From Bifidobacterium sp. N4G05 (GTDB taxonomy: Bacteria > Actinomycetota > Actinomycetes > Actinomycetales > Bifidobacteriaceae), in contig NZ_NJNQ01000006.1 in the NCBI RefSeq assembly GCF_002742445.1, forward strand, positions 1 to 64,000: a stretch of 64,000 nt of DNA, in the 5' to 3' direction. Below the pieces are notes generated by a model, which searched no databases, had not been told where the DNA came from, and was given only the letters and a program-made list of their open reading frames with translations. Positions 24,316 through 30,834 of the stretch are shown here, piece by piece (the first letter of the stretch is position 1; the number at the start of each line of letters is the position of its first letter). Position numbers and translations under genes: made by a program.

Positions 24316-24590
24316 GGCATCTCTTCCTACTAGAAATTACGACATGCCTATCCTATGCCATTCCCGGCCGAGGATACGCGAATCCATCATCCAGTGAGCA
24401 GTGGATTTTTTACGGTTTCGCGGCTCACTTTGTGGACTGGATACGTGTCAAGGCACCGCCTCCGGTAGGATAGACCGCAGTTTGCAGGACAAAATCCATG
24501 CACGAAACCACGAATTTCATCTGCGAATGGTAGAAACCCGAACGCTTTCCAAGCGTTCACCCCACTACACAAAAAGGAGTGCCAAGTACA
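24316..24590. other. Upstream region of ilvC1
   Basis: No gene seen. Contains a long-loop inverted repeat GTGAGC/GCTCAC (about 24393-24426) and a tight hairpin GAACGCTT-TCC-AAGCGTTC (about 24539-24557) close to the ribosome site AAAAAGGAG. The hairpin could act in leader control of ilvC1; no leader peptide rich in branched-chain codons was found. Confidence 0.5.
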
Positions 24591-25631
24591 ATGGCTGCAC
24601 AAATCTGGTATGAGAACGACGGCGATCTCTCGGTCCTCGAAGGCAAGAAGGTTGCCATCATCGGTTACGGTTCCCAGGGCCACGCCCATGCGCTGAACCT
24701 GCGCGATTCCGGCGTCGACGTCGTCGTCGGCCTGCGCCCGACCTCCAAGTCTGTCGAGCACGCCAAGGAGCAGGGTCTGGAAGTCAAGTCCGTTCCGGAA
24801 GCCGCCGCTGAAGCCGACATCATCATGATTCTGGCTCCGGATCAGTATCAGCGCACCATCTGGGCCAACGATATTGAGCCGAACATCAAGCCGGGAGCTG
24901 CTGTCGCCTTCGCTCATGGCTTCAACATCCACTACGGCTACATCAAGCCGACCGAGGACCACCCGGTCTTCATGGTCGCCCCGAAGGGCCCGGGCCACAT
25001 CGTGCGTCGTGAGTACGCCAACGGCCGTGGCGTCCCGGTCGTCGTGGCTGTCGAACAGGATCCGCGCGGCGACGCTTGGGACATCACCCTGGCTTACGCC
25101 AAGGCTCTGGGCGCCCTGCGCGCAGGTGCCATCAAGACCACTTTCACCGAAGAGACCGAGACCGATCTGTTCGGCGAGCAGAACGTGCTCATGGGCGGCG
25201 TGAACAAGCTCGTTGAAATGGGATTCGAAGTCCTCACCGATGCCGGTTACCAGCCTGAAATCGCCTACTTCGAGGTCTGCCACGAGTTGAAGATGCTCGT
25301 CGACCTCATGAACGAGGGTGGTCTGAACAAGGCCCGCTGGTCCTGCTCCGACACCGCCCAGTATGGCGACTACACCAATACCTGCATCGATGAGCACGTA
25401 CGTGAGCGCATGCAGTACCACCTGCAGCGCATCCAGGACGGCTCCTTCGCCAAGGAGTTCATCGAGGATCAGGACGCTGGCGCTCCGAAGTTCAAGGCCC
25501 TGCAGGAAGAGTACGGCAACGTCCGCATCGAGACCGTCGGCCCGAAGCTGCGCGCCATGTTCTCCTGGAACAACGGCAAGGATGATGACGCCGACATGGC
25601 CACCTTCACCGGCAAGATCGCCCGCGGCTGA
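24591..25631 (+). CDS. ilvC: Ketol-acid reductoisomerase, copy 1
   Basis: A 346-residue class I ketol-acid reductoisomerase, the NADPH- and Mg2+-dependent second step of valine, isoleucine and leucine synthesis. [22 protein letters not shown] is the Rossmann nucleotide site near residue 20. [11 protein letters not shown] and [13 protein letters not shown] belong to the active site, and the C-terminal knotted domain has [10 protein letters not shown] and [10 protein letters not shown] with the metal-binding acids. The ATG at 24591 is the family start. It is monocistronic. A convergent paralogue lies 460 bp downstream. Confidence 0.95.
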
Positions 25632-26090: not shown

Positions 26091-27143
26091 TCACTGAACC
26101 TGGGTACGGGCGATCTTGCCGTTGAAGGACTCGGCCATATCGGCATCGGCGTCCACCTGGTTGTTCCAGGAGAACATGGCACGCAGCTTCGGGCCAACGG
26201 TCTCCAGGTGCGGGTGGCTGTACTCTTCCTGCAGCTCCTTGAACTTCGGAGCGCCAGCGGCCTGATCATCCATGAACTCCTTGGCGAAGGAGCCATCCTG
26301 AATGCGCTTGAGCTGGTACTGCATGCGCTTCTTGGTCTCTTCGGTGATGACGGTGGAGGTGTAATCGCCGTACTGGGCGGTGTCAGAGCAGGACCAGCGA
26401 GCCTTGTTCAGGCCGCCTTCGTTGGCCAGATCAACCAGCATCTTCAGCTCGTGGAACACTTCGAAGTAGGCGATCTCCGGCTGGTAGCCAGCCTCGGTCA
26501 GCACGTCGAAGCCCAAGTCGCACAAGTGGTTGATGCCACCCATGAGCACGTCCTGCTCGCCGAACAGATCGGTCTCGGTCTCCTCGGTGAAGGTGGTCTT
26601 GATGGCGCCTGCACGCAGAGCGCCCAGAGCCTTGGCGTAAGCCAGGCACAGCGGCCAGGTCTTGCCATCCGGATCCTGCTCCACGGCCACGACGACCGGA
26701 ACACCACGGCCGGCTGCATACTCACGACGAACGATGTGGCCCGGGCCCTTCGGAGCGACCATGAAGATCGGGTGGTCCTCGGACGGCTTGATGTAGCCGT
26801 AGTGGATGTTGAAACCGTGGGCGAAAGCCAGAGCAGCACCCGGCTTCAGGTTCGGCTCAACCTCTTCCTTGTACACCTTGGCCTGGTACTGGTCAGGCAG
26901 CAGGATCATGACCACGTCGGCTTCGGCAACGGCCTCGCCGACCGGCTTGACTTCCAGGCCCTGCTCCTTGGCGTAATCCACGGACTTGGAGGTCGGACGC
27001 AGACCAACGACGACGTCCACACCGGAATCGCGCAGGTTCAGCGCATGAGCGTGACCCTGGGAACCGTAACCGAGGATGGCCACCTTCTTGCCTTCGAACA
27101 CAGACAGATCGGCGTCCTTTTCGTACCAGATAGTTGCTGCCAT
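26091..27143 (-). CDS. ilvC: Ketol-acid reductoisomerase, copy 2
   Basis: A 350-residue class I enzyme very similar to the copy at 24591, with the same [21 protein letters not shown] site, [25 protein letters not shown] and [10 protein letters not shown] blocks. Differences cluster in surface helices (for example [15 protein letters not shown] versus [15 protein letters not shown]). AAAAGGAGCGCC precedes the ATG at 27143; the open frame extends to 27287 through a structured leader and is not used. The two genes are convergent and long enough to recombine as an inverted repeat. Which copy is the main biosynthetic enzyme cannot be told. Confidence 0.94.
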
Positions 27144-27380
27144 GATTGGCGCTCCTTTTATTTTTTCTATCGCTTCGGGATCGTACTTTTCCCGAAAAAT
27201 CTTTCGATTTCTGTTACTTGTTCGGTTGTTGCAACGGCTTGTGATTCCTAGGATGTTACTCCCCCCGGATTGTGTCCGAGGAATCACACCGCCTCTCCTG
27301 CGGAACTGTTCTAGTCCCGTTTTCTTTATATTGGTTGCTGACGTTCACATAGTGGTTATGTTTTGCGTCAAACGCTTTTT
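27144..27380 (-). promoter_or_regulatory. Structured 5' leader of ilvC2
   Basis: On the transcript GTGATTCCT (27281-27289) pairs with AGGAATCAC (27241-27249) around a C/G-rich loop that holds CGGACACAATCCG. A second stem TTCGGG/CCCGAA follows near 27171-27196. A -35-like TTGACG lies at about 27365. The layout suggests leader-mediated control, but I cannot name the mechanism. Confidence 0.45.
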
Positions 27381-27432: not shown

Positions 27433-28782
27433 TCACTTGGCGAAATCGACGTCCTTGGTTTCCTTGCAGCTCAGCACCGCAACAAGGCAGCACACGGCCA
27501 TCACGCCGAGGTACAGACCGACGGAGTGCACACCCCAGTGGTGGGACAGCCAAGTGGCGATGGTCGGCACGAATGCCGCGCCGACGATGGCGGCCAGGTT
27601 GTAGCCGATGCCGGAGCCGGAATAACGCACGTTGGCGTCGAACAGCTCCGGCAGGAACGCGCCGATCGGACCGAATGCGGTGCCCATCAACGCGAAGCCG
27701 ATGCACAGGAACAGCAGGTTGGCGGCGAAGTTACGCTGGCCGACGACCGACGGATCAAGCAGGAACGGGAAGAGCAGCGCGAATGCCACGAGGCAGCAGG
27801 ACGAGATGACGATCACGCGCTTGCGGCCAAATTTATCGGCGTTCACGCAGGAAATGACAATGAACGCGGCGAACACGCAGATGGCGAGCATCAGCATGAG
27901 CAGGTATTCACGATTGGTGAAACCAAGATTACCGCCGCCCTGTTCGATAGTCTTGGTGCCCCAAGCGAGGGACCAGGTTGCCAGCGTGTAGAACAGCGTG
28001 TAGGTGACGGCCACCAAGAACGTGGCTTGGATGACTTCCTTCCAGCTCTTCTTGAACACTTCGGTCAGCGGGGACTTGACGACCTTCTTCTGTTCCTGGG
28101 CCATGCGGAAGATCGGAGTCTCCTCCATCTGCACGCGCACCACAAGACCGACGATCACCAGCACTGCGGACAGCAGGAACGGCACACGCCAACCCCATGC
28201 CAGCATCGCATCGTTATCGTTGAACGTTTCCAACAGGAAGTAGGTGCCGTTCGACAGGAAGAAACCGATCGGGGCGCCCAATTCCGGGAAGGAGCCATAC
28301 AGCGCACGCTTGTCTTCCGGAGCGTTCTCGGTGGCTACCAAAGCGGCACCCGACCATTCGCCGCCCAAACCGATGCCCTGCACGAAACGGCACAGGCACA
28401 GCGCGGCGACAGCCACAATGCCCCACTGGTTGTAGGTTGGCAGGCAGCCGATCAGGAACGTGGCGACACCCATGGTCAACAGCGAAACCACCAGTGTGGT
28501 CTTGCGGCCCATGCGGTCGCCGAAATGGCCGAACACCAAGGATCCGAGCGGACGTGCGATGAACGCGATGGCGAAGGTCAGCAGGCTGGCTAGCAGCGCG
28601 ACGGTCGGATTGGTGGTGTCTCCGAAGAACACCTTCGGGAAATAGTTCGCAGCGGCGGTGCCGTATGCGTAAAAGTCGTAGAACTCGATGGCGGTGCCGA
28701 CCATGGAAGCGGCGATCACGGTTTTCACCGAATCGCGCACCATTGCCTGCGCTTTACCAGCGGCTGCTTCGACTGCACTCAT
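27433..28782 (-). CDS. MFS transporter, metabolite:H+ symporter (MHS) family
   Basis: A 449-residue, twelve-helix symporter. TAIEFYDFYAYGTAAA in helix 1, ARPLGSLVFGHFGDRMGRKTTL in loop 2-3 and LGGEWSGAALVATENAP in helix 5 are hallmarks of the MHS family (ProP, ShiA, KgtP), whose members import betaine, shikimate, dicarboxylates or related acids. Substrate is not predictable from these motifs. The ATG at 28782 has AGGAG upstream. A leader peptide with three successive Ile codons plus a terminator precede it, which argues for a substrate linked to branched-chain amino acids or their keto acids. Confidence 0.85.
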   Translation of the reverse strand: MSAVEAAAGKAQAMVRDSVKTVIAASMVGTAIEFYDFYAYGTAAANYFPKVFFGDTTNPTVALLASLLTFAIAFIARPLGSLVFGHFGDRMGRKTTLVVSLLTMGVATFLIGCLPTYNQWGIVAVAALCLCRFVQGIGLGGEWSGAALVATENAPEDKRALYGSFPELGAPIGFFLSNGTYFLLETFNDNDAMLAWGWRVPFLLSAVLVIVGLVVRVQMEETPIFRMAQEQKKVVKSPLTEVFKKSWKEVIQATFLVAVTYTLFYTLATWSLAWGTKTIEQGGGNLGFTNREYLLMLMLAICVFAAFIVISCVNADKFGRKRVIVISSCCLVAFALLFPFLLDPSVVGQRNFAANLLFLCIGFALMGTAFGPIGAFLPELFDANVRYSGSGIGYNLAAIVGAAFVPTIATWLSHHWGVHSVGLYLGVMAVCCLVAVLSCKETKDVDFAK

Positions 28783-28900
28783 TGGATTACTCCTGTTACG
28801 TCTGTCATGTGCTACCGGCTCCCAGCATGCGCCGATAACGTCTTCTTCTGTTCTCTTGTTGCAGTCTTCATTTCGTTGCCTTACGCCTTGTGGGCGGCAA

Positions 28901-29010
28901 CAAAAAGGCCCCGCAGTATGCAGGGCCATCAACGTGTGTGTTTTGCGCGCCTCAAACCCTGCCTCCGTTGGCGAGGGATTGAAGCTGCATTGCTCGAATC
29001 AGTCCGCCAA
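28901..29010 (-). promoter_or_regulatory. Branched-chain amino acid-type attenuator
   Basis: On the transcript, region 1 TTGGCG (29010-29005, the last codons of the leader peptide) can pair with region 2 CGCCAA (28973-28968). Region 2 also holds GGCAGGG (28963-28957), which can pair with CCCTGC of region 3. Regions 3 and 4, GGCCCTGC (28927-28920) and GCGGGGCC (28914-28907), form a terminator stem followed by TTTTTG. A ribosome stalled on the Ile codons would free region 2 to pair with 3 and allow read-through into the transporter. Confidence 0.75.
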
Positions 29011-29067
29011 CGAAAGCGGAATAATAATTCGTGCGGACAGCAATGCGCGTGCAACCATTCCGTTCAT
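28999..29067 (-). CDS. Leader peptide, Ile/Leu/Val-rich, 22 residues
   Basis: A tiny open frame starting MNGMVARALLSARIII and ending PLSLAD before TGA. GGAGG lies nine bases upstream of the ATG, a very strong site for so short a frame. Of 22 residues, eight are Ile, Leu or Val, with three consecutive ATT codons, a pattern seen in ilv leader peptides. Its last codons form one arm of the attenuator. It lies 216 bp before the MHS transporter and would make transporter expression depend on charged tRNA-Ile. It is not expected to have a function as a protein. Confidence 0.75.
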   Translation of the reverse strand: MNGMVARALLSARIIIPLSLAD

Positions 29068-29137
29068 CGTGGCGAACCTCCTTTCGCAAAGTCTTGTATT
29101 CGGCGGGCGATCCGCTCGAACTAAGCCGTAAAGATAA

Positions 29138-29184
29138 GCGCGTCCACATACCCTTTCTACTAAAGGTTCACTATGTGGACGCGC
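29138..29184 (-). terminator. Terminator of the sucrose-locus MFS gene
   Basis: GCGCGTCCACATA and TATGTGGACGCGC form a perfect 13-bp stem after the transporter stop. On the minus strand it is followed by TTATCTTTA. It separates this gene from the leader peptide unit. Confidence 0.75.
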
Positions 29185-29232: not shown

Positions 29233-30834
29233 TCATTTCAGCAGCAACGTCAGCACGCCCGCAACAGCCATGCAACCGGCGGCAACAGCGAAAATCAGCA
29301 GATATTCGCCAGTCACCGCAATCGCAATCGCGCAAACGACAGCGCCAATCAACGAACCGAACGTATTCGCCAAACTGAACGCGGCCAACGAACGACCAAC
29401 GGAACGCACATCCGGCAACGTCGCAAGATTCAACCCTTGGCTCACGCCGTCGTACACCACATACGCGAAACCTGCAAACAGCGCATACAACGCGACTGCC
29501 ATCGCTCTATCGATCGGCGTCAACGGAAATACTACAGCAACCACAAACAACAGGCAGGCGGCAATCGCGGGAATACGGGAATCCTTGAAAGCGCGGGCGA
29601 TACGACCAAGCAGAAGCGCAGCCAACAGCGATCCGACGAATGCGGCAACGGCCATCACCGACATAACCGCAGCCGCTCCGGACAAACCAAACATGGCGAC
29701 CTGCGAAACATCACCCAAGCCATCCTGCGCAAGATACCACTGGTAAATCGCAATGCCGGAAGTGGCTGCGATGGCAAACATGCGCGCGGCAAACGCAATG
29801 AAGAACTTCGGAGCGCCCTTCGGCGGGCGATACTGCGAAAAATAATCGCCCTTCTTCACATCCTCCCGAGGCAAATAGCTGCTGGAACCCTCAAACGGCA
29901 ACACCAGCAATGTAGCCACACCAGCCACCACCAGGCACAACGCAAACACCATCATGGCGAAACGCGTGGTGCCATCCCAACCGGAATCGTCAGCGGCCCA
30001 CGTAAGCGAAACGGCCGCGATAATGCCGAACACCTGGCCGAACGCCTGACCAACGCCACGCCACGCGTCCGCACGATCACGGAACTTGTCGGGCACGCGC
30101 TCACCGAAAGCTGCTGCCAGCGGCATCGACACCATCGCATATCCGATCAGCGCGAACAGCCAGAACACGATGACCAACGGCATGAAATCGCATGCGGAAA
30201 GAATCGCCACCGACGTGGCAGTCAGCACCGTGCCGGCGATGATCCACGGGGTACGGCGGCCCAGCGGGCAGTACGAATGGTCGGATCCGACGGAAATCCA
30301 CGCATTCATCAGAAACGTCAGCAGCGTGCCGACGATGCTGAGCAGCGCCAGATCGGTAACGCGGTTGGTGCCGGAAAGACGGCTGATGGTCTGCGGAATG
30401 AGCACGGAGTTGAGCGCGGCCATCGGCGCGGTGAACAGCAGCGCGCCAAGCGCGAAGCCGACGGTGAGGCGATGCACCTGCGGTTTGGTGGGCGTGGTGC
30501 CGTCGGGCGCGGTCATCGGGTCGCGCAGGTCGAGGAACGACGATTCGAGGTTCGGCACGGCCGCGTCAAGATGAGCAAACGCGGTCAGGGGGGAGCCACC
30601 TTCCGTGTTGATGCGGGTCTGCTGCACTTCCGGGCGTTCGTTGGAGGCCTCGGGCACGCGCGGATTCTGCTGTACGGCCAAGCGCTTCAGGGCCGCTTTG
30701 GTCTCTTCGGTCAGCGTTTTTTCGTAATCGGGACGGTCATCGATGCCGGGGCGCACGAACACCTGACCCGGCAGCGGCTGCGGCCGCATTGGAGGCTGCT
30801 GCTCATCTGCATTATGTTGATTGTCTTCAGTCAT
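29233..30834 (-). CDS. MFS sugar transporter of the sucrose locus
   Basis: A 533-residue major facilitator with an unusually long (about 120-residue) polar N-terminal extension, rich in Gln and Pro, before the first helix (LTVGFALGALLFTAPMAALNSVL). About twelve helices follow. The loop SYCPLGRRTPWIIAG matches the GRRTP-type signature of sucrose/oligosaccharide MFS carriers. Together with sucrose phosphorylase and the LacI gene it forms the usual bifidobacterial sucrose cluster, so sucrose is the likely substrate. Start is the ATG at 30834 with only a weak AAGAG site. A decayed DUF624 gene separates it from the phosphorylase. Confidence 0.82.
   Translation of the reverse strand: MTEDNQHNADEQQPPMRPQPLPGQVFVRPGIDDRPDYEKTLTEETKAALKRLAVQQNPRVPEASNERPEVQQTRINTEGGSPLTAFAHLDAAVPNLESSFLDLRDPMTAPDGTTPTKPQVHRLTVGFALGALLFTAPMAALNSVLIPQTISRLSGTNRVTDLALLSIVGTLLTFLMNAWISVGSDHSYCPLGRRTPWIIAGTVLTATSVAILSACDFMPLVIVFWLFALIGYAMVSMPLAAAFGERVPDKFRDRADAWRGVGQAFGQVFGIIAAVSLTWAADDSGWDGTTRFAMMVFALCLVVAGVATLLVLPFEGSSSYLPREDVKKGDYFSQYRPPKGAPKFFIAFAARMFAIAATSGIAIYQWYLAQDGLGDVSQVAMFGLSGAAAVMSVMAVAAFVGSLLAALLLGRIARAFKDSRIPAIAACLLFVVAVVFPLTPIDRAMAVALYALFAGFAYVVYDGVSQGLNLATLPDVRSVGRSLAAFSLANTFGSLIGAVVCAIAIAVTGEYLLIFAVAAGCMAVAGVLTLLLK

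Follow-up and report, generated by a model that had tools for sequence, protein, structure and literature searches.

What does a 22-codon ORF carrying three consecutive isoleucine codons do in front of a transporter gene? The question is raised by a locus in the first 64,000 nt of a Bifidobacterium sp. N4G05 contig (hereafter the window), where an earlier note, made from the sequence, had proposed an ilv-type attenuator that controls a transporter of the metabolite:H+ symporter (MHS) family instead of an ilv biosynthetic gene.

Layout of the locus

Reading downward from position 29240 on the minus strand, the locus runs from a promoter-like stretch through the leader ORF and a terminator to the MHS transporter gene and then ilvC, with the following features.

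29167–29179, minus strand: palindrome TCCACATAGTGAA, a possible operator preceding the leader promoter (TTCACNNNGTGAA with one mismatch)
29131–29136, minus strand: TATCTT, putative −10 element of the promoter for the leader, some 50 nt before the Shine-Dalgarno site
29074–29083, minus strand: Shine-Dalgarno site AGGAGG within AAAGGAGG; GGAGG is kept in most relatives
28999–29067, minus strand: leader peptide ORF MNGMVARALLSARIIIPLSLAD, 22 sense codons, from ATG at 29067–29065 to TGA at 29001–28999; found in 80 of 80 homologous loci
29028–29020, minus strand: three consecutive ATT (Ile) codons of the leader ORF
27433–28782, minus strand: MHS-family transporter gene, 449 aa, ATG at 28782 (TIGR00883, 408 bits; matches to MFS_1 and Sugar_tr)
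26091–27143, minus strand: ilvC (ketol-acid reductoisomerase; NF004017, 509.6 bits), next co-directional gene; MHS-ilvC order in 78 of 80 loci
24579–25631, plus strand: second ilvC, on the strand opposite to the leader and the MHS gene

The leader ORF, its GGAGG site and the three isoleucine codons all lie where the earlier note had placed them, as do the complementary strings (TTGGCG near the end of the ORF with a downstream CGCCAA, and GCAGGG with CCCTGC) and a terminator with a U-run; the 216 nt spacing that it had given before an MHS-type gene is the distance from the leader stop codon to the ATG at 28782. Folding of the leader RNA, which it had suggested as a check, showed the region 28893–29075 to be more stable than all 200 of 200 dinucleotide shuffles (z = −3.6). 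The note had also named two kinds of observation that would speak against its proposal, the loss of the isoleucine codons or of the alternative pairings in relatives, and a promoter between the terminator and the transporter that bypasses the leader. No promoter-like site was found in that interval of the window, and in several species (loci L055 and L068) the distance from the terminator to the matched MHS start is only about 53–57 nt.

Conservation of the leader ORF and its codons

A single scan of species genomes yielded 80 homologous Bifidobacteriaceae loci with the same transporter. An isoleucine leader precedes the transporter in every one of them, a check in relatives that the earlier note had proposed. 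Each locus has a short upstream ORF that ends, in its reading frame, with R-I-(I/M)-x..stop; the N-terminal half and the length of the ORF vary, and the RII(I/S/N)..stop end is kept. All 80 leaders hold at least two isoleucine codons within a three-codon stretch, so the loss of these codons in relatives was not seen. The third codon of the stretch encodes Ile in 49 loci, Ser in 29 and Asn in 2, and on this comparison the third isoleucine codon is dispensable, with conservation limited to the first two.

The string CGAATTATTA, with the codons CGA ATT ATT, is identical in 78 of the 80 loci, the remaining two having CGAATTATGA, which reads Ile-Met-Ile. Since ATT accounts for just 5.9% of isoleucine codons and CGA for 3.9% of arginine codons in the transporter genes, it is the exact rare codons that are kept. 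RNA pairing accounts for some of this: CGAATTA pairs with the leader stop codon and the following TTCG in the outer helix of the hairpin AB described below (96.5% of cells paired). Neither of the alternative structures pairs the last base of the second ATT, so pairing explains the codon conservation only in part. Leaders of the B. pseudolongum group end differently, in RIIISPSAS followed by the stop, yet segment B of the RNA still matches segment C. Judged by these comparisons, the leader is far beyond what chance would be expected to produce.

Two mutually exclusive sets of RNA pairings

From the aligned sequences, the pairings read as a chain of six segments, with AB/CD/EF as the termination set and BC/DE as the antitermination set.

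29022–29031, minus strand: CGAATTATTA, Arg-Ile-Ile codons, the proposed module for stalling, which also forms the 5' arm of segment A; identical in 78 of 80 loci
29015–29031, minus strand: segment A, 5' arm of the protector hairpin AB; AB helices 93–97% of cells paired in 66 sequences
28995–29014, minus strand: segment B, 3' end of the leader ORF and its stop codon, partner of A or C; BC helix 93.5% paired, with double-sided changes in 5 of 11 pairs
28953–28978, minus strand: segments C (CCCTCGCCAACG) and D (GGCAGGG), approximate bounds; CD 84%, BC 93.5% and DE 93.7% paired
28902–28927, minus strand: segments E and F, intrinsic terminator GGCCCTGCA-TAC-TGCGGGGCC (28927–28907) with TTTTT; EF 96% paired, with double-sided changes in 4 of 9 pairs

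Structure counts were made on an alignment of 66 leaders, with slid pairings and 500 shuffles as controls. The AB/CD/EF set is paired in 92.4% of cells (34–49% when slid) with 59 double-sided-change cells (shuffle mean 20), and the BC/DE set in 93.6% (37–56% when slid) with 39 such cells (shuffle mean 16), both cell counts lying above all 500 shuffles. The count of BC/DE pairs with a double change is not above the shuffles (288/500), so for this set the covariation signal comes from the cell counts, in which related sequences enter more than once. RNAalifold, given only the alignment, predicted BC and EF. A script found an intrinsic terminator between the leader ORF and the gene in most loci, and no clear one in L066, L077 and L079. 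Both of the mutually exclusive pairings are thus conserved in relatives with compensatory changes, and their loss was not seen.

A predicted attenuator sensing isoleucyl-tRNA

We consider it very probable that the leader is a classical ribosome-mediated transcription attenuator, which senses the charging of tRNA-Ile and controls the MHS transporter. A ribosome would begin at the leader ORF and trail RNA polymerase. With enough Ile-tRNA, it would reach the stop codon and cover segment B, C-D and E-F would pair, and transcription would end at 28907. With scarce Ile-tRNA, it would stall at the first or second ATT, covering A and leaving B free, upon which B-C and D-E would pair, no terminator would form and the transporter gene would be transcribed. 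What the comparisons show to be conserved is the ORF, the isoleucine codons, both structures, the position before the gene, and the re-use of the leader before ilvC and a BASS-family transporter, all as read from genome sequences; from these we infer actual termination and a response to isoleucine. The central proposal of the earlier note therefore stands, with a conserved ORF, conserved isoleucine codons and conserved rival structures, and with neither kind of adverse observation encountered.

The stall and stop outcomes are predictions of a folding calculation, in which the RNA under the ribosome was masked, the 3' edge of this mask was assumed to lie 15 nt beyond the first base in the P site, and the RNA was folded to the end of segment E. 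For the window, placing the first or second isoleucine codon in the A site gives 0.95 for BC and 1.0 for DE, and DE is 0.0 with the ribosome moved to the stop codon. The same direction for DE, stall above stop, is obtained in 61 of 66 sequences. The third codon is a weaker stalling point in the masked folding, in keeping with the loss of isoleucine there in 31 of 80 loci. When no ribosome is placed, DE is 0.19 in the window against an average of 0.70 over all sequences, and basal behaviour without translation may therefore differ between species. Equilibrium folds that include segment F separate the two states in only 28 of 66 sequences, so the model relies on the kinetic order usual for attenuators. 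No such leader or attenuator was found at the ilvB of the same genome, so isoleucine control is not pathway-wide.

Distribution of the leader and copies before other genes

A covariance model of the leader (R1) was used to search genomes. It finds one strong copy in the genome of the window (E = 4e-22, other matches having E > 0.02); of the 189 Bifidobacteriaceae genomes searched, 116 carry copies. Close MHS orthologues occur in 119 genomes, and 113 of these have a match; the other six belong to two other genera of the Bifidobacteriaceae. The outlying-lineage loci L076–L079 have diverged leaders with 7–10 isoleucine codons and 38–51% Ile/Leu/Val; two of them, L076 and L078, may have a four-segment form, since C and D themselves seem to be part of the hairpin that leads into the T-run. 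Over 149 genomes from other families of the order, R1 gave matches at E 0.004–0.04, which is chance level. Two R1 matches, L109 and L110, look like ordinary terminators and were rejected as leaders.

A copy of the leader stands directly before ilvC in three genomes, G208, G273 and G274 (copies including L105 and L107), the G273 copy being placed by a position and size that match those of the G274 copy, and directly before a BASS-family transporter gene in G170, G208 and G267 (L106, L108 and L113). The extra copies L105–L108 and L113 keep at least two isoleucine codons. Neither G170 nor G208 has a close MHS orthologue (best 57%). In G273 and G274, MHS and ilvC lie apart and MHS keeps its leader too; in G274 each of the two genes has one. 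The leader is found in only 3 of 30 BASS orthologues examined, and no isoleucine leader was found at the BASS gene of the window's own genome. Nor was a leader match found at an MHS paralogue, 57–59% identical, that many bifidobacteria carry (G298:C10:112505, G170:C43:29599 and others).

Relation to ilvC

The earlier note had set the transporter in place of an ilv gene and had put the two ilvC genes immediately beyond it. The first gene after the leader in the window is indeed the MHS gene and both ilvC genes are present, but only one of them is co-directional, and "instead of" is too strong, as ilvC is the next co-directional gene after MHS in 78 of 80 loci and three genomes have the leader directly before ilvC. 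An ilv biosynthetic gene as the first regulated gene is seen only with the extra copies in G208, G273 and G274, and not in the window. The two ilvC genes of the window are convergent; their proteins are about 82% identical in relatives, and in some relatives the second copy is missing or distant.

This gene order suits a different account, in which ilvC is the chief target of the leader and the transporter merely rides along in an MHS-ilvC operon, as do the three leaders immediately before ilvC and a search of the window that found no minus-strand terminator between the two genes. We nevertheless regard this account as unlikely, given that MHS retains the leader where it is separate from ilvC (G273 and G274), that the leader also precedes the BASS transporter gene, and that ilvC seems to have a promoter and a conserved 5' element of its own. 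The MHS-ilvC gap is 207–615 nt, and a promoter-like TATGAT with a GGACAMAATCC hairpin is common upstream of ilvC (57 of 79 MHS-ilvC intergenic regions). Each of the window's two ilvC genes is preceded by the hairpin (27267–27277, minus strand; 24487–24497, plus strand), itself lying after a −10-like element, and elsewhere in the genome the string occurs only once, inside an apparent uvrA. On these grounds ilvC probably has its own transcription start. The GACAMAATC core also occurs in the D-E spacer of 22 of 80 isoleucine leaders, against about 1 expected.

In published, unreplicated RNA-seq of B. pseudocatenulatum, an adjacent MFS transporter gene (BPSEU7765_0087) and ilvC (BPSEU7765_0088) rise together on another carbon source, and the rise of ilvC was confirmed by qPCR (PMC4850155). 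These two genes are presumably orthologues of the window's MHS gene and ilvC, and their joint rise fits co-regulation without bearing on isoleucine.

Explanations without tRNA sensing

The leader could also act through its peptide, with the tail RII(I/S)PSSLAD contacting the exit tunnel and so stalling the ribosome, perhaps with the help of a small molecule; the isoleucine codons would then belong to the arrest sequence and be no gauge of tRNA. The peptide end and its exact codons are unusually conserved, the CGA ATT ATT string being more invariant than isoleucine sensing alone needs, which counts against the attenuator; the change from Ile-Ile to Ile-Met in two loci likewise suits a hydrophobic motif. 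However, neither the pseudolongum group nor two outlying genomes retain PSSLAD, although the RNA pairing or the isoleucine codons remain there, segment B encodes PSSLAD so that pairing accounts for its conservation, and the outlying leaders are rich in Ile/Leu/Val codons, all of which makes peptide-driven arrest improbable. Hardly credible is a fixed terminator with no response to isoleucine, the short ORF before it being either fortuitous or the gene of a small protein with a function of its own: terminator-like sites of the kind at 28927–28907 are expected by chance about once per 600 bases here, but the mutually exclusive pairings are conserved with compensatory changes, and the variable length and N-terminus of the ORF speak against such a protein.

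Transporter identities and likely substrate

The MHS protein is 98% identical to its B. catenulatum subsp. kashiwanohense counterpart, which places the window in a Bifidobacterium close to B. catenulatum. It matches TIGR00883 over its full length as the best of 21 models, at 408.1 bits, below the curated cut-off of 443.45; by this profile match it is an MHS-like member of the MFS. The presence of the leader before ilvC and BASS genes makes it more likely that the MHS protein carries branched-chain amino acids or their keto acids, as the earlier note had predicted, and hints that the genes under the leader serve one branched-chain amino acid pathway. Because of these copies a branched-chain keto acid or precursor is supported as the substrate, short of proof, and the MHS transporter may move a precursor of a branched-chain amino acid or a 2-keto acid.

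Pantoate is derived from 2-oxoisovalerate, the keto acid of valine. PanS and ASBT_NM are both relatives of the BASS protein. By analogy, and given this derivation, one may reasonably guess, but no more than guess, that the isoleucine-controlled transporters carry a small branched acid of the 2-oxo or 2-hydroxy type. Against the PanS model NF047939 (ketopantoate/pantoate) the BASS protein scores 239.5, below the cut-off of 400, and pantoate binding has been published for ASBT_NM (PMC10645422).

We tentatively suggest that the leader might be a portable isoleucine-sensing module with an obligatory CGA-ATT-ATT rare-codon pause, marking a salvage route for branched-chain 2-keto acids or precursors in which MHS, or the unrelated BASS transporter in some species, feeds the ilvC pathway. 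With the regulated transporter swapped (MHS or BASS) under one leader, regulation is here used to predict function: isoleucine supply is assigned as the signal to a transporter that is conserved, but uncharacterised, in one of the major genera of the human gut, along with a testable substrate class.

Comparison with known systems

The enterobacterial his attenuator has six segments, A–F, with AB/CD/EF terminating and BC/DE antiterminating, and the present leader is predicted to share this logic and likewise has a leader peptide bearing regulatory codons. It differs in sequence, in having two rare ATT codons and no long run, and in its target, a transporter gene and, in some genomes, ilvC. The enterobacterial ilv attenuators (ilvGMEDA and ilvBN) have isoleucine codons in the leader and branched-chain amino acid limitation as the signal. 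The codons are shared here and the signal is predicted to be, but the present leader has two or three isoleucine codons, lacks a Val/Leu run in most Bifidobacterium (outlying genera have one), and has a transporter gene first. T-box riboswitches also read tRNA charging and control terminators, and often regulate transporters, but the sensor here would be a translated ORF, and an Rfam search at gathering and relaxed thresholds returned no match for the leader, T-box included.

Actinobacteria have the ilvB leaders of Corynebacterium, Mycobacterium and Streptomyces, described in parts of two reports as a short ORF with Ile/Val/Leu codons followed by a terminator (Seliverstov 2005, PMC1262725; Corynebacterium ilvB-II, PMC10272879). 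The likeness lies in a short isoleucine-codon ORF with a terminator in Actinobacteria; as described in those parts, however, the known leaders precede ilvB and their ORF overlaps the terminator, whereas here there is no overlap and the antiterminator segments are explicit. Neither an attenuator of this sort in B. longum nor a transporter target is reported in the same parts (PMC1262725; PMC10272879). One result cited there counts against a codon-based model, in that changing the candidate regulatory codons of the S. coelicolor ilvB leader left regulation unaffected (reported in PMC1262725). In the literature on Bifidobacterium attenuators, only the 2005 study was found to be relevant. Bifidobacterial attenuators are barely described, with none of this kind in Rfam, and it is well supported that the leader represents a new attenuator family, absent from Rfam but of a known kind, whose unusual features are its target set and its invariant rare codons.

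The upstream promoter region

Elements resembling TATCTT, TATGGT or TAGCTT lie at a similar position upstream of the leader in several relatives. The palindrome TTCACNNNGTGAA, with at most one mismatch, occurs in 28 of 80 leader upstream regions against 10 of 400 random 300-nt pieces. It is also found upstream of 24 of 79 ilvC genes and of roughly one in three of 30 BASS genes, and may be a transcription factor site common to all three. The space that separates the leader from the MFS gene farther upstream holds a 13-bp inverted repeat, GCGCGTCCACATA/TATGTGGACGCGC (29138–29184), which overlaps the palindrome and is possibly the terminator of that MFS gene.
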